A stretch of DNA of 38,853 nucleotides from Planctomycetales bacterium (GTDB taxonomy: Bacteria; Planctomycetota; Planctomycetia; Pirellulales; Pirellulaceae), in assembly GCA_020426865.1 (NCBI GenBank), contig JAGQPD010000106.1:1-38853 (forward strand), given 5' to 3'. Both the position numbers and the translations under genes were made by a program. This document shows positions 25,757 through 38,683 of the stretch, in pieces. The notes beneath the pieces were generated by a model, which was not told the origin of the DNA, made no database searches, and worked only from the letters and a program-made list of their open reading frames with translations. How positions within the stretch are numbered: the stretch's first letter is position 1; each line of letters opens with the position of its first letter.

Positions 25757-28700
25757 CTACTTCTGATTGCTGACGAGTGAAAGCAGGAATTCCAGGTGCG
25801 ACGATTTTTGCTCGATGAGTTCTGCCCGGGCGACAGCTGATTGCAACAATCTTGCCGACGAAGCGGAATTCAGCTTGTGGGCTATGGTAGCCAATAGCAG
25901 TTCATCTTCAACAGTGGCCTCAGACGCACGCAGCTGAAGAGCCTTTTGGATCGAAGCTTGCGCTGACTGCACATCTTCTTGCATGTACTGAACCAAAGCA
26001 CACCAATGCCAGGCTTCGGGCGATTCCGGGCAACTAGTGACCCAAGCCCGTACAACACGTTGAGCCCGTGAGGCATCGTTGATCAGGTCAGGGTGGCTCT
26101 CGCATAACGCCTTGAGTAGAAAGCGATTGGCCTGGTAGGAAATGCGGTAGGCGCCGCTACGCGCTGCAGATTCAATGTTATCGAGTGCCTGAGCTAGCAA
26201 CGCCGCTTGATCCGCGGAAGTCGAATTTCCAGAGAGATTTGCTTCAAGAAACTGCGCTTTACCTTGTAACCACTGCAGCTGCGAGTCGTTTAGGCTGCCC
26301 TGAAACGGAGCAACAGATTCCTTGAATGATGCGAGCTGGTCGAGGACTTGTGAATCGTTGCCCGAAACGCAGAAGTTTTCCGCCTTGGCAATAATGTGCG
26401 CAAGGGCCAAAGAGGCCGCTTTAGGGTATTTCAATTCCAAGAGATGCGGTACCAGCACATCGTTCAGCTCTAGCCATTGTTTGGCTTCATCAGACTGCTG
26501 TTCCGTGAATAGCTGTGCCAAAGACAAGTAGCAACATGCCAAGCGGTAGACTCGATCCGGGCTAACTCCTTCTGTTTCCACCAATTGTTGCCATTCGTCG
26601 ACTGCCGAATGCAAAGCCTCGATTGCCTCTTGATTACGACCAGAGATCGTAAAAGTGTCCGCCAAGTTTGCTAACAAAACGGCCCGATTCTCGCGATAGA
26701 AACTCTCACCGTAAAGCAAATGCCACGCGCGATCCAGATCGTTTTCAGCATCTCGATAGGACTCCAGCGCCGACTTCATTCTGCTCTCTGCCAACATTGA
26801 TGACGCCAGGAGCGAAGCCGCCAGCGAACGCGATTCAAACAGGTCGGGGCGTGCTGGTGATTCGTCCAAGCTACGGTCATAAAACGCAATCAGGTCTCGT
26901 GCGGCCTGGGCAGCCTTCACGTACTGGCCGGAACGAAACAAGACTCTGGTTTTCTCCTCGATGATTGTTCCCCGCAACTTCACATGGCCCGGTGATGGAG
27001 ATTGCTGAAGTAGGATTTCGCTGTCGGGGAGAGCGTCGGTGAGATATCTCTCGGCTGATTCCCAATCCGATCGGCAAGCTGCAATTCTTGCTGCTACCAC
27101 TCGGGCGCGAGTTAGCGCGTTGCGAGCGTCGCGATTCGTTGGATCTTGCTGCAGCAATTGTTGAGTCATTGCAATGGCTCGGTCGATAGTCCCCTGCGAC
27201 TCGATGGGAGATTCAGCTTGCTTGTCGACCACTGCTGCGACTGTCTCCAAATCGATTGCTGGCAGGTTGCCGAGATTCTCTTGCCCCAAGATCGCCTGGC
27301 CGATGAAGGCGTTCGCCAACTGGACGGTCGCTTCCGCTTGGGATTGAGTTGCATCACCCTCGTTCGCCGAGAGGCAAGCTTCAGCGAGTGATTGGGCCTG
27401 CTGATAGTTTTGCCTTGATTCGTCCGGTCGACCAAGCAACCTTTGAAGGTCCCCCAGGCGGAGAAGATGATTCACAATTTCCGATTGGATTTGTCGTTGA
27501 TCATTGAGTGACTGTCGTGAGGCCGCTACGTCTCCATTCTTGACGGATTCACCGAGCAGAACTTCTTGATCGTGTTTAGTGGTGTCCAGTAGGTTTTGGT
27601 AGTGCTGGACGCCCCTTTCCAAGAGCATTTGCCGCACAGGTTGCAGACCGGGGTAGAACTGCAAGTCACCGCTGATGTCAATCAACCACGAGTCCGCCGC
27701 CTCTCGGGATGCAACTAACTGCTCTGCAGTTCTCTGGCGTGCCAAGCTTTCGTTCTGCAAGGCCAACTTAGCCGATGCCGATGCCGAATCTGCGGCAAGC
27801 CTCGCTATTCGTTCTTGCTGGTGAGCCTGTGAAACCTTACCAACGGCAAATAGGGCGGTGGCGGTAACCAACAGGCACGTGGCAAAGATCGCTCTGAAAG
27901 CAGTGCTGTGACGGTTGGCCAGCCGGTCGAACCTTTCCCAGGCGGATTCGCTATAGACGCTTACCAGGCCACCTGCCAGGAAATTGTCCAGATCTTGTGC
28001 CATCTGATGGGCATCTGGATAGCGATTGCCAGGCTCGCGCTGCATGGCATACTCGCAGATCGCCGCCAAAGAGCGCGGGATTCTCGGCGAAACTTCTCGC
28101 AGCGGGCGATAGTCGCACAACACAACGCGCCTAAGTGTTCCTTCCAGCGTGTCGCTCTGGAACGGGAGTTGGCCAGCGAGTATCTCGTATAGAATGACTC
28201 CCAATGAAAATACATCCGAACGTTTACTGACCCGATCGTTCTCTCCGAGCGCCTGTTCGGGGGACATGTAACTGGCCGTGCCCATCACGGTTCCCTGTCG
28301 CGTCATATCACTACGACTTGAATTGCGGGAGAACTTGGATCGCACGTTGACCTCGGGCTTGGTTGAGAGTGCGTTCGCATCGGAACCAGGAACGCCTGCT
28401 TGTAGCGTCGCGTTTGCACAAGCCTCTGGCTGCTCTGGCTGGACCGCTTCACGGCGAGCCAGTCCCCAGTCGAGCAGGATCGTCTCGCCAAATTCGCCCA
28501 CCATAATATTGGCGGGTTTTAGGTCACGATGTATCACTTGGGAACGATGTGCGTATGCAACGGTATGGCAAACGTCCCGGAATCGATCGAGCAATTGCCG
28601 TAACAAAATCTGGAATTCTTGTTGTGATTGGTTGGCGTGTAGAGTTTTGATTCGATGTGCAAGTGTTTCTCCTCGCACTTGCTTCATCGTGTAGAAGGGA

Positions 28701-29419
28701 AGCAGATTCTGGTCTACGCCAATTTCGTAGACGGGCACGATGCCGGGATGCTCGAGTTGTCCTGTGATTTGAGCTTCATTGACAAATCGTTGCACCAGGT
28801 CATTGGTGATCTCGTGGTGATCGACGATACGTTTGAGAACAACATTTCTCTGAATCTGCAGGTCGAGGGCCTGGGTGACGACGCCGCAGCCCCCTCGGCC
28901 AATCTCGCCCAATTCTTGATAGCGTTCAAGCCCGGTAACGATGCCTGACAACTGCTGTGCCAGTTTCGCTCCCAGACGATGCGAGTTCCGCCCCTTAGAC
29001 TCTTCGGCGGGCGATTTCTGCCTGGAGGACTCTCGATGCCTGCCGGATTTTGGTTGAGTACTTTGGTCGCCTCTGGGGTGCTTGGCTTGGCCGCTGGCCA
29101 ATGTTGCTTGGCCATGCTGGCTCGGCGGAGCAGACTTGCGACTTTTTCGTGGCCCAGTCGTCTTGCCAATCGTCTCTGCCTGCGGAGAGAACAACTCAGA
29201 TTGTCGCGAGATTTCCTCAAGCAACTGCCGCAGTTTGACAAGCTTTTCCGCATCATTGGCAAAAGTGTTATACACCACGGCATGAATCGTGGTTTCAGCC
29301 TGCGCTGCCTGGAGAAGAATCTGCGACGCTTCCACTGCATCGATTAGGCGTTGCTCGATCGCATGTTCAATCCATTTGGCGTACAGTCCGGCCTGATTCA
29401 AGTTCGTGTTCCGATGCAA
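25757..29419 (-). CDS. Large membrane Ser/Thr protein kinase with TPR-like C-terminus
   Basis: A 1220-residue kinase. The only plausible start is TTG 29419: the frame has a stop just 40 bp further upstream and no ATG until the kinase domain. Residues 90-150 are a low-complexity basic linker. The kinase domain spans about 166-485: GRGGCGVV, VLKR (Lys196), HRDLKPAN (297-304), DWGLA in place of DFG (317-319), GTASYMSPEQ and SDVFSLGVILYE. DWG is frequent in bacterial PknB-like kinases of this phylum, so activity is expected. A transmembrane helix lies near 507-527. The remaining 690 residues are helical, with TPR-like pieces (QSLNDQRQIQSEIVNHLLRL, ESRQNYQQAQSLAEACL) and AWHWCALVQYMQEDVQSAQA near the end. 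It is divergent from the FHA-GGDEF gene across 371 bp. Confidence 0.9.
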   Translation of the reverse strand: MHRNTNLNQAGLYAKWIEHAIEQRLIDAVEASQILLQAAQAETTIHAVVYNTFANDAEKLVKLRQLLEEISRQSELFSPQAETIGKTTGPRKSRKSAPPSQHGQATLASGQAKHPRGDQSTQPKSGRHRESSRQKSPAEESKGRNSHRLGAKLAQQLSGIVTGLERYQELGEIGRGGCGVVTQALDLQIQRNVVLKRIVDHHEITNDLVQRFVNEAQITGQLEHPGIVPVYEIGVDQNLLPFYTMKQVRGETLAHRIKTLHANQSQQEFQILLRQLLDRFRDVCHTVAYAHRSQVIHRDLKPANIMVGEFGETILLDWGLARREAVQPEQPEACANATLQAGVPGSDANALSTKPEVNVRSKFSRNSSRSDMTRQGTVMGTASYMSPEQALGENDRVSKRSDVFSLGVILYEILAGQLPFQSDTLEGTLRRVVLCDYRPLREVSPRIPRSLAAICEYAMQREPGNRYPDAHQMAQDLDNFLAGGLVSVYSESAWERFDRLANRHSTAFRAIFATCLLVTATALFAVGKVSQAHQQERIARLAADSASASAKLALQNESLARQRTAEQLVASREAADSWLIDISGDLQFYPGLQPVRQMLLERGVQHYQNLLDTTKHDQEVLLGESVKNGDVAASRQSLNDQRQIQSEIVNHLLRLGDLQRLLGRPDESRQNYQQAQSLAEACLSANEGDATQSQAEATVQLANAFIGQAILGQENLGNLPAIDLETVAAVVDKQAESPIESQGTIDRAIAMTQQLLQQDPTNRDARNALTRARVVAARIAACRSDWESAERYLTDALPDSEILLQQSPSPGHVKLRGTIIEEKTRVLFRSGQYVKAAQAARDLIAFYDRSLDESPARPDLFESRSLAASLLASSMLAESRMKSALESYRDAENDLDRAWHLLYGESFYRENRAVLLANLADTFTISGRNQEAIEALHSAVDEWQQLVETEGVSPDRVYRLACCYLSLAQLFTEQQSDEAKQWLELNDVLVPHLLELKYPKAASLALAHIIAKAENFCVSGNDSQVLDQLASFKESVAPFQGSLNDSQLQWLQGKAQFLEANLSGNSTSADQAALLAQALDNIESAARSGAYRISYQANRFLLKALCESHPDLINDASRAQRVVRAWVTSCPESPEAWHWCALVQYMQEDVQSAQASIQKALQLRASEATVEDELLLATIAHKLNSASSARLLQSAVARAELIEQKSSHLEFLLSLVSNQK

Positions 29420-29790: not shown

Positions 29791-30696
29791 ATGAACGGTA
29801 CAATTCTTCACACCAAACTGCTGGAAACTAACGCCGAGGATGCCGATGTTGGACAGCGTTGGCTCGTTCAGGTACATCCGCTGAATTTGGAGCAGAACCG
29901 TATCGAGTTGGACCGACGCGATACGATTCTCGGTCGGTCTCATGAATGCGACGTGGTTCTCGAGGATGAATCCGTGTCTCGTCAACACGCCGTCATTCGA
30001 TTCGGCGAAGATGGCTACACCATCGAAGATCTAGGCAGCACCAATGGTGTGATCGTCAACGATGAACTGCTCAGTCTTCGGTTACTGCGGACCGGGGACC
30101 GAATTCAATTGGGAAAACGGATTTTCAGGTTTCTGGCAGACACTGATGTCGAGGCACAGTATCACGAAACTGTCTATTCCATGATGACCAGAGATGGATT
30201 GACCTCAGTTTTCAACAAGCGTTATCTCCTGGAATGCATGGATCGAGAGGTCGTCCGTTCGCAGCGACATCAGCGCCCGCTTTCGGTAATCTTAATGGAC
30301 ATCGACCATTTCAAGTCGATCAATGATACACATGGTCATTTGGTCGGCGATGAAGTGCTGCGAGAATTGGCTCAGCGACTGAGTCGATTGTTGGGAGACG
30401 ACGAAATCCTGGCGCGATTTGGTGGTGAAGAGTTTGCGATCATCTGCGACGAGTCCAAATTGGAATCAGCGCTCCAGCTTGCCGAGCGCTGTCGGCAAGA
30501 AGTCGCAGACTCTCCGTTCTCAACGGCCAGTGGTCCTTTGGATGTAACCATAAGTTTGGGAGTTGCGACTTTGGGCAAGACTCCAGAATGCACGCGAGAC
30601 AGCTTACTTGCTGAAGCGGACGGCTATTTGTACGAGTCGAAACGAGCTGGACGAAATCGAGTCACTGGTCCAGCTCACTGCGCTGACTACGCATAA
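29791..30696 (+). CDS. FHA-domain diguanylate cyclase (FHA-GGDEF)
   Basis: A 301-residue cytoplasmic protein that should make cyclic di-GMP. GAAGG lies 7 nt upstream of the ATG. Residues about 27-115 form an FHA phosphothreonine-binding domain (TILGRSHECDVVLEDESVSR and GSTNGVIVND); the GRS, SRQH and GSTNG landmarks are intact. The GGDEF domain follows: DGLTSVFNKRYL, MDIDHFKSINDTHGH with metal-binding Asp170/Asp172, and the active site GGEEF (211-215). The inhibitory I-site RxxD is replaced by GDDE, so product inhibition may be absent. No transmembrane segment is seen. It is divergent from a membrane Ser/Thr kinase, so a phosphorylated partner of that kinase is a plausible FHA ligand; this is inferred. 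Confidence 0.92.
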   Translation: MNGTILHTKLLETNAEDADVGQRWLVQVHPLNLEQNRIELDRRDTILGRSHECDVVLEDESVSRQHAVIRFGEDGYTIEDLGSTNGVIVNDELLSLRLLRTGDRIQLGKRIFRFLADTDVEAQYHETVYSMMTRDGLTSVFNKRYLLECMDREVVRSQRHQRPLSVILMDIDHFKSINDTHGHLVGDEVLRELAQRLSRLLGDDEILARFGGEEFAIICDESKLESALQLAERCRQEVADSPFSTASGPLDVTISLGVATLGKTPECTRDSLLAEADGYLYESKRAGRNRVTGPAHCADYA

Positions 30697-31823: not shown

Positions 31824-32422
31824 GTGCGTATTCTGCTAACAGCCTTCGAGCCTTACGGCGATTGGTCGGACAATTCCAGTTGGCTGGCACTAGTGGAGCT
31901 GCTGAGGAATTGGCCCAATCACGTCGAATTGGTAACGCGGCGTTACCCGGTCGATTTGGCAACGGTCCGCAGCCGTTTGAACAGCGATTTGCAAACTGAT
32001 TTTGACGCGGTGCTGCATCTTGGGCAGGCTCCAGGCTCGCCTATAATCAAGCTTGAAGCAATGGCGCTGAACGTCGCCGGTTGCTTGGAGCAGGCGGGGG
32101 TGGAGCTGCCATACATCGTCGATTCTGCCCCGATGGCATTTCGCAGCCGTATGCCGCTGGCGACCTGGAATCACACCCTAGCCGCAGCTGGTATTCCATC
32201 GCAGATTTCATATCACGCCGGTACATACTTGTGCAATGCGATTATGTACCTGAGTCACTATTACTTCTACACACGCGACCTGAACACCCCGGTCGGGTTG
32301 TGCATCTGCCACTAGCTTCGGAACAGGTTGCGGCGCGAGGACAGCTGCTTCCGTCTCTTCCAGTTAGAACCATGGCAGACGGTGTTGGTATTCTGCTGCA
32401 GGGGCTAACAAGTTCAACTTAG
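31824..32422 (+). pseudogene. Pyroglutamyl (pyrrolidone-carboxylate) peptidase, frameshifted
   Basis: The sequence reads as a C15-family cysteine peptidase that removes N-terminal pyroglutamate. The start GTG 31824 gives VRILLTAFEPYGDWSDNSSW, the family N-terminus. Glu78 stands in IKLEAMALN and Cys137 in HAGTYLCNAIMY. The frame then ends at 32315 with VGLCICH. One frame over, from 32300, the expected ending continues as VHLPLASEQVAARGQL to a stop at 32422. The break fits loss of one base after the TT at 32298-32299 (GGG TT- GTG CAT), and the catalytic His lies in the second frame. It could be a true pseudogene, a sequencing error or a programmed shift; no slippery run is visible. The end overlaps the GTPase gene on the other strand by 9 bp. 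Confidence 0.75.
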
Positions 32423-34201
32423 GACGTGAATACTCAGCAGAAATTCAGCCTGTTGCAATAGCTCGTCTTCGAATTCCAATCGTATGACGCCAGATTGCCG
32501 TAGTTGCGCAATGCAGGCCTCATGTTCATCGACAACCTGTTTGGCAACCCTGCGAACATAACGTCGGCTTAGGGACCAAGTCAGTACCAGCATACAATAC
32601 ACAGCCAGGGGCAGCAGGGAGAGGATCACACTGGTAAACAGCAGGCCTGGCGTCGGGTGGGGGAAAGCGTCCAGATGAGATTCGGCTCCACTGAATACAT
32701 GATACGAAGCAACGAAATACTCTCGGTAGATAACGACGACGGGGCCAGCCATAAACATCCAAAAGAGCAGCACTCCTACCAAAGCGTAGACTTGGACAAG
32801 CCAGCTAGGTGTCGCATGGCTCTCAATTGCTCCGTCAAAGATGCGTTGGGAACGAGTTTGCAGCTCTTCAATACCGGACAGTCGCATACCTGTAGAACGC
32901 TGGTCTGCGTCGGAGCGATCCTCGCGCGGTCTCAGTTTCAGTACGGTGCGGTGAAACTGATCGCAAAGAGGTTGCAAGCGTTCGGCGACTTGTTGCTGAG
33001 TCCGCTGGCGGATCCCTTCTTGGATTTCCAAAGTGAAATCTCGATTCTGTCGGACGTTTCTGGCGAACGAAGTCAATGCACCGAATAGACTTGGCACACT
33101 TCCAGCAAGCGCGAGCATCACGCGATCCCAGGCACCTTGGGTTAGATTCAAGGTGGACATAACTGTTCGGTAGGGAAACCACAGCAGGGACGTATCACCG
33201 ACTAGACGAGCGCGCAGCCGCATGCGAACGCCGGTTTCTAACAGTGATTCACTACCAAGCAGTGAGGCGAGTACCCGCTCGGGCAGCTGTTGAGTCTCAC
33301 GCGACAGCTGGTCAACTGCCGTGGCCAATTGCGGCAGTTCACCACGGATCAACTGATGAACGCGTTCGTGCAACCTCTTGCCAGTGGCCGCCAAGCGAAT
33401 ATCGTGGGACGTGCCAAGTTGTTGTTGCGTCAATCCCAAAGAGCTGATGCGATCGAGCAACCCAGTTACAAACACGGAAGACGATGATTCTTCGTTGCCG
33501 CTGATTTCGAAGTCTGGAACCAGCAATTCCGAAGTCAACTGCGAACTCGGCGCCAGCAGCATCAGTTGTTCACGAAGCGATCTCAAATCGTCACGCAAAT
33601 CACCTGCTGGCGCACCGTTCTCGATCTCCTCGGGCTCAACGGAACTGATAACTGGAACGCAGTAAGATCCCTCGATTTGCTGTGCAATGACCATATTGCT
33701 GGCCGCACGGATCTGATCACGAGCAATGACCAGCAGTTTCACTGGAGCTAGCGAGAGCGCCTCCTTGGCAAGTTGCGCAGCCATGTGGTTGGAGTCGGTC
33801 AGACCTGGCGTATCGAGCAAGACATATGTTTGACCAATGTCAATCATCTTGCTGGAAGGGCAGGGATGGTAGAACTCCGTCGATGGATCCAGATTGTCCG
33901 GGGGCAGCGGTCCAACCCAAACTAATCGCGTCGTCGCATCCTGCACCAGATCCCCGCTGGGCATCAACTTCTTGATATGCTCATCCCGAATCAGCTGCCG
34001 GGCTACCCAGGTCTTGCCTTGTCCTTTGGCTCCTACAATTGCAATTAACAGAGCGCCGATGCCGCGCCCCGCTTCTATGTTCGCGACGTCCTCTAAATAG
34101 TGTCGGCATGCCTCGGCAACTTGGCGAGTCACTGGCGCGTTGCCAAAGACCGCGTTGGTTGCCGATTCGATACGACGGGCGATGGACGGACTGATGGTCA
34201 T
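32414..34201 (-). CDS. Membrane-anchored dynamin-like GTPase B
   Basis: A 595-residue P-loop protein. Walker A is GAKGQGKT (57-64) and the G3 motif is DTPGL (130-134); no clear NKxD is visible. A long helical middle follows. Two strong transmembrane helices lie at about 468-492 and 519-543, with a short cytoplasmic tail, and a hydrophobic patch near 362-378 may act as a membrane paddle. This order (GTPase, helical stalk, membrane insertion) is that of bacterial dynamin-like proteins, though sequence is far from the known ones. It starts 9 bp after the stop of GTPase A and is the last gene of the obg-coaX operon. Tandem partners that work as heteromers are common among bacterial dynamins. Function is inferred only. 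Confidence 0.65.
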   Translation of the reverse strand: MTISPSIARRIESATNAVFGNAPVTRQVAEACRHYLEDVANIEAGRGIGALLIAIVGAKGQGKTWVARQLIRDEHIKKLMPSGDLVQDATTRLVWVGPLPPDNLDPSTEFYHPCPSSKMIDIGQTYVLLDTPGLTDSNHMAAQLAKEALSLAPVKLLVIARDQIRAASNMVIAQQIEGSYCVPVISSVEPEEIENGAPAGDLRDDLRSLREQLMLLAPSSQLTSELLVPDFEISGNEESSSSVFVTGLLDRISSLGLTQQQLGTSHDIRLAATGKRLHERVHQLIRGELPQLATAVDQLSRETQQLPERVLASLLGSESLLETGVRMRLRARLVGDTSLLWFPYRTVMSTLNLTQGAWDRVMLALAGSVPSLFGALTSFARNVRQNRDFTLEIQEGIRQRTQQQVAERLQPLCDQFHRTVLKLRPREDRSDADQRSTGMRLSGIEELQTRSQRIFDGAIESHATPSWLVQVYALVGVLLFWMFMAGPVVVIYREYFVASYHVFSGAESHLDAFPHPTPGLLFTSVILSLLPLAVYCMLVLTWSLSRRYVRRVAKQVVDEHEACIAQLRQSGVIRLEFEDELLQQAEFLLSIHVLS

Positions 34202-34210
34202 AGTTACAGA

Positions 34211-36406
34211 TTAGCCCAGGTGTTGAAGCGTGGATCGAAGGCTGCGCAGGAACGTGTCATCGAGTGCCCATTGATTGAAGGCGACCACGTCGGGAATCGA
34301 CTTCGACTCAAGGTTGCTGGCTAGCAATCGCCGGTTCGAACCATGAATGTTGGTCGACGGCAGTTCGGCTAGCTCGGGTCGCGGTAGCCGCAGACTATCG
34401 CAAGCAATCGCGAACAAATCGCTCAACTGTCTCCACGGTGTTTCACGCTGAACGATCGATAGCGTCTCGCCACCGGTTGCGACTGAAGTCGTCAGTACGG
34501 CGATGCCAGCGGCAGCAAATAGTTCTTTGGTCGATGCGAAAACCAACACTGCCGTGCCGCCGGCATCGATGGGAATCAGTACTGCTGCCAGGAGAGGCGC
34601 CATCAGTACGGCCAGAGGTTGCGTGCCTTTCCACAGCTTGTCTTTGAACGACATGCCCTGCCAGACTTGTTTGCTCCATTCGTCCAACTGCTGGGCGTCC
34701 AGTCGAGTTGTGTCCTCGGCTGCAAAGCGTTTCATGGCTTGCTCGCAGCAATTAGTCAATTGTTCATCATTCAGTCGGAATAGTGCGTCGTGCTTATCGG
34801 CGGCCCGCATCGCCTGCGCCAATCTCTGTGGCGTTACCACTTGCGCTCCTTCGCCTCGCCGAAATCGTTTGGTCAGCTGAGTGACCGACTGGGAAGCACT
34901 TTGCAAGATCTTGAATCTGGAGGCAGAATTTGCCACGGCCTGATGCAACTGCCGGGCGGTGCGGTCGATGCTTAAGCTCAAACGCATCCAAGCAGGAGCT
35001 GTCTTTTGCAGACTATCAGCCATCTGCGCGACGATCGCAGGTGAAGCTTGCAGCCGTAGCCCTGTCGTCCGGCCAGAGCTATCGCGTTCGGCCATGAATT
35101 CATAACACGCATCGGCAACAGCTTGCCAAGCATCAGCACTTTGTAACGCTTGCTGTCGTTGGTTCTTATCCAACCAAGCAAGCGATTCCAGAGTCTTGGT
35201 CTTAAGCTGCAACTGTAGGCTGCGGCTGCTTTCGTACGATAGTGCACCTATATCCAATCTTTTTCCCAAATCGTACAAGTAGAGAGGCTCTGCCGAAGGC
35301 AATGTCTCAGCACGAGCGGCGAAAAAGACGGGCAAGTCTTCGTTTTCCTGGTCCTGCACGGGCATGCCGGGCGGTCGGCCGGGTAGGCGAGATGTCGCCA
35401 AAGCGCTACGAAAATCATAAGCGGTGAAAATCTCGCTGATGCCAAATCGATCTTTCAGGCCTTGCGCTTGCTCCAAGACCGTCGCAGGCGCATACCGAGC
35501 TTTGAGCTTGTTGATCGCCAATAATCGCGGCACACTGGGCATCGCATCGCGGAGAGTGGTCAGGATATCCAGCAGCCCGTCGTCGTGCAGACTATTCAAT
35601 TTGCAAACGACTACAAAGGCTGAGCAAAGTCTCCCCATTCGCGCCAGCTGAAGCCGTCTTTCCTGGGCCAATACTTGCCCTGTTGAAGACGAGCCTGCAT
35701 AGGAGTAGAACCCCGTCTGGATATCGGGGCAATCCGCCAACCCGAGCTTCAAATCGTCCAGGCATTCGTCGTATGCGATCAAAGGTACGTTCAACGCGTT
35801 GCTGGAGCCAGGTGCTGCATGCCCCTCCGATGATTCAGAATGTACAGAATGGGAATCAGTGGGACCTGCGTGCTGGACAACCCACTGGGCCAGCATCGAT
35901 CCGTTGTACTGCAAGGCAGCCTCTTCGGGATCTTCCGACAGCAGCTCCGGCCGCCGCCCAAAAACATTGGTCAAAAATCCTGTCATCGTGCTCAAAAGAT
36001 CGGGATTGTCCCACCAGACTTTGGGCAACCACAGCACGAAGCGATGCGTACCTGAGTTATTCCCCAAACCACGCAGCACGCGGGCGCGGTTTTTCGCGGA
36101 CAAATAAGTCGCAATTAGCGAACTCTTTCCAGAATTCAATAAGCCGGTCACTGCCAATATCGGGCAGCGGCTGATCTCTCGAAAAGTGGTTAATTGACCG
36201 ATCAGACCGTCGAGCGCGTGCGCTAGTTCGCTGCCGGATTGGAGTAACTCGGGTGTCGCAGCTACTTGATCGGAAGCTAATGCTTGTTGGATACTCAAAC
36301 GAGCATCGGTTTGCGGAAACGATTGTAAGAGTCCATGCCGCGGATCGCTGCTCGATAGCAAATCAATCAGAAGCTGCGCATTGTCGGACTGTGGCGTGTT
36401 AGTCAC
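34211..36406 (-). CDS. Dynamin-like GTPase A, large
   Basis: A 731-residue P-loop GTPase starting at GTG 36406, which overlaps the coaX stop (GTGA, 36403-36406). G1 is GLLNSGKSS (88-96), G2 probably Thr120 in NNSGTHRF, G3 is DCPDIQT (225-231) and G4 is NKLK (299-302), so nucleotide binding is likely. A Ser/His-rich insertion lies at about 182-203. A helical region rich in Gln and Arg runs to about 590, then a hydrophobic stretch at 597-645 (PLAVLMAPLLAAVLIPIDAG) suggests membrane association. The family is unnamed to me; it resembles dynamin-like or YeeP/YfjP-type GTPases. It immediately precedes GTPase B, and the pair probably acts together. Confidence 0.65.
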   Translation of the reverse strand: MTNTPQSDNAQLLIDLLSSSDPRHGLLQSFPQTDARLSIQQALASDQVAATPELLQSGSELAHALDGLIGQLTTFREISRCPILAVTGLLNSGKSSLIATYLSAKNRARVLRGLGNNSGTHRFVLWLPKVWWDNPDLLSTMTGFLTNVFGRRPELLSEDPEEAALQYNGSMLAQWVVQHAGPTDSHSVHSESSEGHAAPGSSNALNVPLIAYDECLDDLKLGLADCPDIQTGFYSYAGSSSTGQVLAQERRLQLARMGRLCSAFVVVCKLNSLHDDGLLDILTTLRDAMPSVPRLLAINKLKARYAPATVLEQAQGLKDRFGISEIFTAYDFRSALATSRLPGRPPGMPVQDQENEDLPVFFAARAETLPSAEPLYLYDLGKRLDIGALSYESSRSLQLQLKTKTLESLAWLDKNQRQQALQSADAWQAVADACYEFMAERDSSGRTTGLRLQASPAIVAQMADSLQKTAPAWMRLSLSIDRTARQLHQAVANSASRFKILQSASQSVTQLTKRFRRGEGAQVVTPQRLAQAMRAADKHDALFRLNDEQLTNCCEQAMKRFAAEDTTRLDAQQLDEWSKQVWQGMSFKDKLWKGTQPLAVLMAPLLAAVLIPIDAGGTAVLVFASTKELFAAAGIAVLTTSVATGGETLSIVQRETPWRQLSDLFAIACDSLRLPRPELAELPSTNIHGSNRRLLASNLESKSIPDVVAFNQWALDDTFLRSLRSTLQHLG

Positions 36407-37569
36407 TGGATTCGGTTCTCTTGGTTTGCCGCAAGAGTCATTGCCAAAGCAAGGAGTCCCTGCTGTACCAAATGTGGCACCACGATGGTTGGCTGGTCAA
36501 GGTACGGCGCCAGACGCATTCCGTCACCTCCACTGATTATAACCGGTACAGACAGTCCGAAATCCTCACGATATCTCCGAACCAAGTGCATGGTTCCACC
36601 AACCAGGCTGCTGGCTGCACCGCACAACATCGCCGACTGAGTATTGCGACCTGGCAACGGTGGCAGGTCGGTCAAGTCATCAGCAATCAATTCAGGCAAA
36701 AGATCGGCACCTTTGCCGAGTAGCCGCAAAATCATAGGAACACCGGGTAAGATCGCTCCGCCACAAAACACGTCTCCTTCCGTAGAAGCATCCGGCGTGG
36801 AATCATTTTGCACGGGTTGAGTTGCGTTCCTGTCGCCCCGCTGCTTTAGCAATGCCCCCTGGTCCGAGCAACGATCGGAGCTAACGGAGAATCGAGAGAG
36901 CAGAGCTTGAGCAAATAGCGATTGATCGTTCAAGTTCGAAGACGATGTGCCCATGCTCGGTTCCAGAGAGGTCAATTCTTGAGCTGGTACATCATTGCGA
37001 ACCAGGTCGACGGTCACAGCTGAACCAGCTTGCACCACAAGCATAGGGCGTTGGCGCGATATGCGACAAGCTGCGAGTGCTGCTAACAAACGGTCAATGC
37101 CCACCTGTTGTGGAAATTCGACAGAAAACTTCAAAGGAATATGACGCCAGTCGACGGGCAGGTAGAGTTGCGGATGAGGTAGACGCTGAACAAAGGACCT
37201 GAGTACTGCTTCCGCATCGCGTCGAACGCTGCTCACCAACCAACAACAAAGGCCACCTTCTGGCGTATGTAACCGCACAAACTGATCAACTTTGTCTGTC
37301 CAGGCTGGATCGTCGGGGGTGAACAGAGAGCCATTCTGATGCGGCGCCGATGACAGCGGCGTCTCCTTGCGCGGGGCACGATTGCGTCGGGATTTATCAT
37401 GTTGGGCTACAGTGTGTTGGGCTACAGTGTGTTGGGCTACAGTGTGTTGGGCTGGGTCGTGCAGCCAATTCAGTCGCATGCTTTCGCCCAGTCGCTCGAC
37501 CGCGGGGAGCAACTCAGAAACCCGCAGGCCACTGTTGCCTATGTCAACTCCGAAGTAACGTGTTGTCAC
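36403..37569 (-). CDS. coaX: Type III pantothenate kinase, with unusual insertions
   Basis: A 388-residue enzyme that phosphorylates pantothenate, the first step of coenzyme A synthesis; type III kinases are normally near 250-260 residues. It starts at GTG 37569. Core motifs are DIGNS (9-13), VGIDRLLAALAA (156-167), VVQAGSAVTVD (178-188, where most members have DxGTAxTxD), GGAILPG (270-276) and SGGDG. Two low-complexity inserts explain the extra length: residues 41-95 (with QHTVA repeats) and about 191-265 (Ser/Asp/Gln-rich). The first insert comes from a 15-bp tandem repeat. It lies 97 bp after obg on the same strand and overlaps GTPase A by 4 nt. Gln180 in place of Asp in the phosphate motif is odd and could lower activity. 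Confidence 0.8.
   Translation of the reverse strand: MTTRYFGVDIGNSGLRVSELLPAVERLGESMRLNWLHDPAQHTVAQHTVAQHTVAQHDKSRRNRAPRKETPLSSAPHQNGSLFTPDDPAWTDKVDQFVRLHTPEGGLCCWLVSSVRRDAEAVLRSFVQRLPHPQLYLPVDWRHIPLKFSVEFPQQVGIDRLLAALAACRISRQRPMLVVQAGSAVTVDLVRNDVPAQELTSLEPSMGTSSSNLNDQSLFAQALLSRFSVSSDRCSDQGALLKQRGDRNATQPVQNDSTPDASTEGDVFCGGAILPGVPMILRLLGKGADLLPELIADDLTDLPPLPGRNTQSAMLCGAASSLVGGTMHLVRRYREDFGLSVPVIISGGDGMRLAPYLDQPTIVVPHLVQQGLLALAMTLAANQENRIQ
37401..37453. repeat. 15-bp tandem repeat inside coaX
   Basis: GTTGGGCTACAGTGT occurs three full times (37401-37415, 37416-37430, 37431-37445) plus 8 bases of a fourth. Because 15 is a multiple of 3 it stays in frame and encodes QHTVA repeats in CoaX (residues 41-57), in an insert that most family members lack. 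Copy number may vary between strains. Confidence 0.9.
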
Positions 37570-37666: not shown

Positions 37667-38683
37667 CTAGAATTGCGTATTGGCTACAGGTTGGGTCCGC
37701 TCGGCAAGCATCTTGGCAATTCGACGTATCAAAATGTTCAGACCTTGTCCGGTAACCGCGCTGATCAACAGAACTTCGCGATCGGTTTCTTGGGTCAGTT
37801 TGGCCACGACTTCAGCCGACTCAGGTATTTCCGACTTGCTAACGACCAATATTTCCGGGCGTTGCTGGAGCTCTTGGCTGTACTGAGCCAATTCGTTACG
37901 AATAACACGATAGTTGTCCACAGGATCGGAGCCATCACCGGGAAGGGGTTCAACGAGATGAACCAGTATTCCAGCTCGCATGATGTGGCGCAAGAAGTCG
38001 TGTCCCAAGCCAACACCGTCGGATGCCCCTTCAATTAAGCCGGGGATATCTGCCATGACAAACGAAGTGTCGATGTCTGCTACAACTAAGCCGAGATTGG
38101 GGAACTTGGTGGTAAAGGGGTAAACTGCGATTTCGGGTCGCGCCCGTGAAAGACGGCTTAGTAGCGTGCTTTTTCCGGCGTTCGGCTTTCCGACCAATCC
38201 AACATCGGCGATGACTTTCAGCTCGAGAATAATTCGGCGCGATTCACCTTCGGAGCCGGGGGTGGCCTCGCGGGGGGCTTGGTTGATCGAACTTTTAAAA
38301 TGCGGGTTGCCTTTACCGCCGCGTCCGCCGCGGGCAATAACGACGCTATCACCATCGCGAACCAAATCCTTCACGACCATTCCGGATTCGGCATCGATTA
38401 AGACGGTTCCTGGAGGTACCTCGATCAATAAATCGGCACCTCGCTTACCATGCATGTCCGAGCCTCTACCATGTTCTCCTCGGGCGGCGCGCCAATGCTT
38501 GCGGTGTGCGAATTCGACGAGACTATTGACACCCTCTCGCGCACGCATGATCACACTTCCCCCGTTGCCGCCATCGCCTCCGTCGGGTCCGCCGAGAGGT
38601 ACGTGTTTTTCGCGTCGAAAAGACATGCAACCGTTGCCGCCCTTGCCCGCTTCAACTTGAATTTCCGCTCGATCGACAAACAT
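37667..38683 (-). CDS. obg: Obg-family GTPase (ObgE/CgtA)
   Basis: A 338-residue ribosome-assembly GTPase; the length fits the family. The glycine-rich Obg domain covers 1-158 (RAEIQVEAGKGGNGCMSFRR, GGPDGGDGGNGGSV, GRGGKGNPHFKSS). The G domain has G1 GKPNAGKS (165-172), G3 DIPGLIEGA (212-220) and a G5-like SAVTGQG. G4 reads SKSE (282-285) instead of NKxD. Obg binds the 50S subunit and responds to GTP/GDP and ppGpp. It is the first gene seen of the operon obg-coaX-GTPase A-GTPase B. The usual partners rplU/rpmA are not present in the 170 bp that remain upstream before the window ends. Confidence 0.95.
   Translation of the reverse strand: MFVDRAEIQVEAGKGGNGCMSFRREKHVPLGGPDGGDGGNGGSVIMRAREGVNSLVEFAHRKHWRAARGEHGRGSDMHGKRGADLLIEVPPGTVLIDAESGMVVKDLVRDGDSVVIARGGRGGKGNPHFKSSINQAPREATPGSEGESRRIILELKVIADVGLVGKPNAGKSTLLSRLSRARPEIAVYPFTTKFPNLGLVVADIDTSFVMADIPGLIEGASDGVGLGHDFLRHIMRAGILVHLVEPLPGDGSDPVDNYRVIRNELAQYSQELQQRPEILVVSKSEIPESAEVVAKLTQETDREVLLISAVTGQGLNILIRRIAKMLAERTQPVANTQF

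Follow-up and report, generated by a model that had tools for sequence, protein, structure and literature searches.

Bacterial dynamin-like proteins (DLPs) are mostly found in pairs (PMC6104087). Campylobacter jejuni encodes two different dynamin-fold proteins, Cj-DLP1 and Cj-DLP2 (PDB 5owv/5oxf), by genes lying side by side; singly they show negligible GTPase activity, while their hetero-tetramer gives activity, lipid binding and tethering (PMC6104087). Enterotoxigenic E. coli possesses the tandem pair LeoA/LeoBC (PDB 4aur), and mycobacteria harbour two DLPs per operon, IniA and IniC, of which IniA brings about membrane fission and possibly depends on IniC (PMC6715688). The idea of a dynamin pair is already known, and in the open-access literature we found no description of such a pair as reported here in planctomycetes. 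The membranes of planctomycetes are strongly infolded. These bacteria lack FtsZ, and the mechanism of their division by budding is an open question (PMC4164004).

The two genes studied here, A and B, lie on a stretch of 38,853 nucleotides from a Planctomycetales bacterium of the Pirellulaceae (contig JAGQPD010000106.1), in the following called the window. The window comprises the entire contig and belongs to a genome assembly of 7.5 Mb in 1341 contigs, which is 78% complete. Four ORFs follow each other on the minus strand in the order obg, coaX, A and B (Table 1), with coordinates, overlap and gap exactly as the initial annotation had given them. The GTG start codon of A is part of a GTGA by which A overlaps the coaX stop by 4 nt, only 9 nt separate the stop of A from the start of B, and the spacing between obg and coaX is 97 nt. 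Because a convergent, apparently frameshifted pyroglutamyl-peptidase gene sits downstream of B, the co-directional run stops at B. A scan for promoters and terminators found no more sites than in shuffled sequences. Chance ORFs can be excluded for A and B, since full-length homologues are present in dozens of genomes.

Some further properties of the window should be mentioned. The pyroglutamyl-peptidase gene (PF01470, 31785-32422, plus strand) has an ORF which stops early at 32315, and the frame 32081-32422 resembles the C-terminal part of this protein; a frameshift is the probable cause of the split, representing either a pseudogene or an assembly error. CoaX, with 388 aa, exceeds its relatives in length (285-356 aa); near residues 41-57 it contains AQHTV in tandem repeat, and near residues 200-262 there is a second insertion, rich in Ser. 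An FHA-GGDEF protein (29791-30696, plus strand) is also encoded, as is a Ser/Thr kinase of 1220 aa that contains TPR repeats (25757-29419, minus strand), and no evidence was found that ties either of them to A-B.

Table 1. Features of the A-B locus in the window (aa, residues of the respective protein).
Feature	Position	Strand	Remarks
obg (Obg/CgtA GTPase)	37667..38683	-	338 aa; NCBIfam TIGR02729 Obg_CgtA 1.4e-132; neighbour outside the A-B system
coaX (type III pantothenate kinase)	36403..37569	-	388 aa; Pfam PF03309 Pan_kinase 1.8e-21; neighbour outside the A-B system, clade-specific
Gene A, predicted 731-aa dynamin-like protein with G domain, helical neck/trunk and hydrophobic paddle	34211..36406	-	ORF, AF2, Foldseek
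A Walker A/G1 GLLNSGKS, aa 88-95	36122..36145	-	G and K in 97% of 85 homologues
A THRF, aa 120-123	36038..36049	-	T120 98% conserved
A G3 position DCPD (versus DxxG), aa 225-228	35723..35734	-	DCPD in 84/85 homologues, ECPD in 1/85
A G4 position NKLK, aa 299-302, Asp of NKxD missing	35501..35512	-	end of strand 5 in the model
A hydrophobic paddle-like hairpin, aa about 596-641	34484..34621	-	family-mean hydropathy maximum 1.9; between trunk helices in the model
Gene B, predicted 595-aa dynamin-like protein with transmembrane hairpin	32414..34201	-	ORF, AF2, Foldseek
B Walker A/G1 GAKGQGKT, aa 57-64	34010..34033	-	kept in 95% of 64 homologues
B G3 DTPG, aa 130-133	33803..33814	-	D[TASI]PG in 59/64 homologues
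B FPYRT...GAWDR...GSVPS, aa 342-371	33089..33178	-	best-conserved stretch, part hydrophobic; F342, P343, R345, G356 and W358 invariant
B TM helix 1, about aa 470-490	32732..32794	-	hydropathy 2.0 (family), 2.45 (window)
B TM helix 2, about aa 521-541	32579..32641	-	hydropathy 2.2 (family)

AlphaFold (AF2) models of good confidence were built from 67 aligned A and 51 aligned B sequences and reached a mean pLDDT of 85.3 with a pTM of 0.81 for A, and of 84.7 with a pTM of 0.64 for B. A Foldseek comparison of the A model with the PDB gave 20 matches at E<=1e-3, every one of them a dynamin-superfamily protein, including SynDLP, Drp1, BDLP, IniA, dynamin, MxA, EHD2 and mitofusin 2. The top 44 matches of B are likewise members of this superfamily, led by Nostoc BDLP1 (PDB 2j68/2j69; 3.7e-8) and LeoA (4.8e-7). 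IniA, Fzo1 and Mfn1 are also among them, the latter two matching over the G domain plus neck, as is the Cj-DLP pair, for which no significant sequence match to A or B exists. As predicted by models and fold matches, both A and B carry a large dynamin-type G domain followed by a helical neck and trunk. A membrane-inserting element within the trunk is predicted from hydropathy and from the order of helices in the models, namely a hydrophobic hairpin in A and two strong TM helices in B; BDLP with its paddle and mitofusin with its TM helices similarly have a hydrophobic hairpin among trunk helices. The membrane segments and the tandem dynamin-like pair which the initial annotation had put forward are thus both supported, and the comparison with dynamin and LeoA folds that it proposed yielded a dynamin-like fold with paddle or TM helices in place, rather than one devoid of them. 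Normalised by query length, the global TM-scores amount to 0.2-0.35, and normalised by target length B reaches at most 0.50, against Fzo1. Such low values are expected of hinged proteins in differing conformations, yet there is no full-length match. From BDLP1, mitofusin and Fzo1 the pair differs by this low full-length TM-score, by divergent G motifs and by being a likely obligate two-gene system.

On the sequence level, no Pfam or NCBIfam model, Dynamin_N included, matched A or B of the window above cut-off. Single members of both families match Dynamin_N weakly, five out of 67 A proteins (best 6e-5) and 17 out of 51 B proteins (best 1.5e-4), and the profiles of A and B align with each other across the G domain (E 7e-5). 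Direct searches gave no usable PDB sequence matches for A or B, and profile searches of PDB sequences found no dynamin at a significant E-value; designed helical repeats, as best hits of profile A1, and viral nsp8, as hits of profile A3, most likely reflect artefacts of helix composition. A library of viral folds returned only giant-virus dynamins and other GTPases, and a viral origin is not indicated. B weakly matches the PADLOC model for LeoA (2.7e-4) and also shows a weak sequence match to LeoBC. However, LeoBC is split into two genes whereas B is one protein with a TM hairpin, the organisms belong to different phyla, and there is no close sequence relation. In comparison to IniA/IniC, no iniB-like gene was seen near A-B, whose neighbours are coaX and an mnmE-like GTPase gene (mnmE') or kinase and ExbB genes.

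According to model and alignment, A starts with N-terminal helices, followed by the G domain (about 80-335), a 53-residue helix, more trunk helices, the hairpin and return helices. Every complete A homologue possesses a G1 P-loop of the form GxxxxGK[ST], because the two out of 85 sequences without it are fragments cut by a contig start. The conserved Thr of the THRF motif is a probable G2/switch I residue. At G3, A departs from the DxxG of the dynamin superfamily; its DCPD is aligned opposite the DTPG of B in the profile alignment, and therefore we file A as a dynamin-fold protein and not as a canonical GTPase. The G4 position reads N[KR][VI]x in the 85 homologues, with N in 100%, K in 52% and R in 41%, and its fourth residue is never D.

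B consists of N-terminal neck helices, the G domain (51-255), long helices, an invariant stretch and the two TM helices (model and alignment). The same P-loop pattern is found in 95% of the B homologues, while neither K nor D is present at the end of strand 5. In three distant B proteins (L056, L057, L058) G1 as well as G3 is gone. The differing state of their G motifs makes A and B asymmetric partners. Cj-DLPs, on the other hand, have an alignable G1-G4 set (PMC6104087), which contrasts with the DCPD of A and with the G4 Asp absent from A and B. The term "P-loop GTPases" used in the initial annotation is therefore appropriate as far as the P-loops are concerned, but the G3 and G4 deviations make the GTPase label less certain. 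Judged from these motifs, specificity for guanine as the base, GTP binding and GTP hydrolysis are putative for A and B.

Studying the distribution reveals that A is present in 55 out of 149 Pirellulaceae genomes and B in the identical 55, neither ever occurring alone, in raw counts that ignore kinship. The same holds for an order-level sample, in which A and B are found in the same 12 of 147 genomes, and for a check of 21 genomes with B in 13/13 carriers and 0/8 others. By their coordinates the two genes are adjacent in 37 of the 55 carriers and non-adjacent in 18; in one genome (G598) they lie 5.4 Mb apart on one contig. B is directly downstream of A in 68 of the 90 A loci read. Copy number is nearly always one per carrier genome, several members of each larger carrier genus have the pair, and the cultivated Rhodopirellula baltica is among the carriers. 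A phylum-wide sample of 392 contains three true carriers. A scan of the whole collection confirmed 104 A relatives, and the 80 loci returned from these are nearly all from Pirellulaceae/Planctomycetota, with two from Verrucomicrobia and one from the MAG of a gammaproteobacterial symbiont. An extra weak A match in the family sample (G577, 57 residues, E 4.8e-4) and two more in the phylum sample (E 2-3e-4, below 50 residues) are most likely other GTPases. Single in-frame stops, due to sequencing error or decay, were seen in the A gene of G643 (TGA, C1:564663-566801) and as TAG in the B genes of G630 (C89:39535-41331) and G641 (C203:4011-5798). One genome (G145) has two apparently identical divergent A-B copies 6855 bp apart (L056, 6306-10153 and 13161-17008), both with a B lacking P-loop and G3.

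The identical set of carriers, 18 of them with non-adjacent genes, makes an obligate partnership of A and B likely; these 18 cases argue against simple linkage, and without a joint function it is hard to see why the pair should persist once its genes have separated. Taken as a whole, A and B probably form a heterotypic pair of bacterial DLPs in which each partner is obligate, and as they are always together even when their genes are distant, they probably act jointly in bending, tethering or fusing membranes. B would be permanently anchored, mitofusin-style, in the cytoplasmic membrane or in infoldings continuous with it, and A would be recruited through pairing with B. Pairing of the two G domains could then drive nucleotide turnover and a hinge movement by which the membrane is tethered, bent, fused or repaired. 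As the switch II of A reads DCPD and the DxPG of B is intact, B is probably the main engine of hydrolysis, with A as the paddle-bearing nucleotide-binding partner or activator.

The initial annotation had linked the pair to growth through a coupling with the genes for CoA synthesis and ribosome assembly. In a specific form of this idea, a transcript in common with obg and coaX would tie membrane remodelling to the supply of CoA and the assembly of ribosomes. The GTGA overlap of the window agrees with this, and so does a coaX gene immediately upstream of A in eight of 90 loci, i.e. the window, its near-identical copy L064, L065-L069 and L072. However, all eight belong to one subclade, most carriers being organised otherwise; only on a deeper, long branch (L074) are coaX and A again close, separated by one globin-like gene, so that the linkage had one or two origins. 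The gene order proposed for checking therefore does extend beyond this genome, but is confined to this subclade and one deeper branch. Distances between coaX and A range from -4 to 164 nt, and the genomic context of the pair changed repeatedly across the tree. In the subclade of the window the order is obg-coaX-A-B-mnmE' (L066, L072; likewise L067 and L068, where obg is not on the contig), while in several genomes without the pair the mnmE-like GTPase gene comes directly after coaX (L169, L170, L171), hence the housekeeping cluster is probably older and A-B a later insertion. In most of the carriers sampled, obg-coaX is found with no A-B genes beside it (L165-L168, L173, L175, L179), and in three carriers of another order B and mnmE' are still joined (L210, L212, L215). 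The simplest reading is an ancestral insertion of A-B at the coaX/mnmE' junction that was later partly broken up. We thus regard the growth coupling as very improbable; "tuned to growth" would mean co-transcription in that lineage at most, and, as part of the heterotypic-pair reading, we take the position beside obg-coaX for a probable quirk of one lineage which carries little functional information.

A role in defence against phages or envelope damage could be considered as well, because Bacillus DynA delays lysis of infected cells (PMC8844932), and because B weakly matches LeoA of PADLOC. Against this stand the absence of any PADLOC match for A, the nearly always single copy and its presence in several members of each larger carrier genus, and, as a weak argument, neighbours which are housekeeping, kinase or ExbB genes and none recognised defence genes; we find this role improbable. 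To about the same degree we doubt that the pair mainly tethers membranes as a structural element, with A as a pseudo-GTPase scaffold and no nucleotide cycle. The DCPD of A, the G4 Asp absent from both proteins and the loss of G1 and G3 from B in L056-L058 would fit such a tether, as would LeoA, for which neither binding nor hydrolysis of nucleotide was seen when alone (PMC4159319). But a P-loop in all complete A proteins and in nearly all B proteins, together with the DxPG kept in 59 of 64 B proteins, indicates that nucleotide binding is under selection.

If A and B are the heterotypic pair we favour, their neighbours in other lineages give hints at a signal input and at a link to proton-channel function. 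In the Rhodopirellula-type clade a gene of the ExbB/TolQ family (PF01618, 4e-28) comes next after the pair, overlapping by 1 or 4 nt in 12 of 25 loci, and in 14 loci a Ser/Thr kinase gene precedes the pair, usually 2-17 nt upstream with 9 as the commonest distance. Two out of three kinases scanned show a weak Cache-domain match below cut-off. Where the pair is split, ExbB stays with B in six loci (L200-L203, L208, L209) and the kinase with A in three (L204, L100, L107). The window's own lineage is without kinase and ExbB neighbours. In Rhodopirellula-type lineages the pair probably receives input on the state of the envelope, through a membrane Ser/Thr kinase on the side of A and an ExbB/TolQ-like channel on that of B. 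More speculative, and on balance unlikely, is a previously undescribed, signal-controlled module for membrane remodelling, made up of a Ser/Thr kinase that spans the membrane and probably senses through a Cache domain, the asymmetric dynamin pair and an ExbB/TolQ-type proton channel. Here A would have the altered switch II and B would be engine and anchor, or a pseudo-GTPase in some lineages, with ion flux or phosphorylation gating dynamin-driven membrane reshaping in the FtsZ-less, budding planctomycetes.

Other small genes are found beside the pair. Across the Pirellula-type clade, a gene upstream of A and divergent from it codes for a small protein (166-233 aa) whose N-terminal part contains a hydrophobic segment (L079, 9194-9718, and 18 other loci); one of these was scanned and had no Pfam match. 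In two genomes of family f10, the gene immediately before the sequence-divergent A-B pair codes for an unassigned protein of about 290 aa with hydrophobic segments (L057, 14433-15302; L058, 8957-10033).

As far as we checked, new are the family itself, the DCPD switch II of A, the pseudo-GTPase B of some lineages, the persistence of the pair after separation of its genes and the kinase and ExbB neighbours. The family has no Pfam model although about a third of the sampled Pirellulaceae carry it. It provides a natural test of heterotypic dynamin function, with partners that stay together after gene separation and one catalytic motif changed. Deletion is feasible in principle, since R. baltica is a cultivated carrier.

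Several Pirellulaceae also harbour another pair of adjacent membrane GTPases, whose G domains match Dynamin_N and whose genes overlap (L186, 5437-8332; L187, 4980-7875; L188, 5515-8521). These proteins have a DUF697 domain (in L186 up to 7.6e-39) and a canonical MMR_HSR1 G domain, whereas a Pfam scan of the window and homologues found PF05128 (DUF697) absent from A and B; we regard the two as separate systems. A strict replacement of the DUF697 pair by A-B was considered, the two being mostly complementary in the sample, but was rejected because two genomes (G000, G145) have both. One member of the DUF697 pair is encoded in the genome of the window (G000:C444:156-1487).
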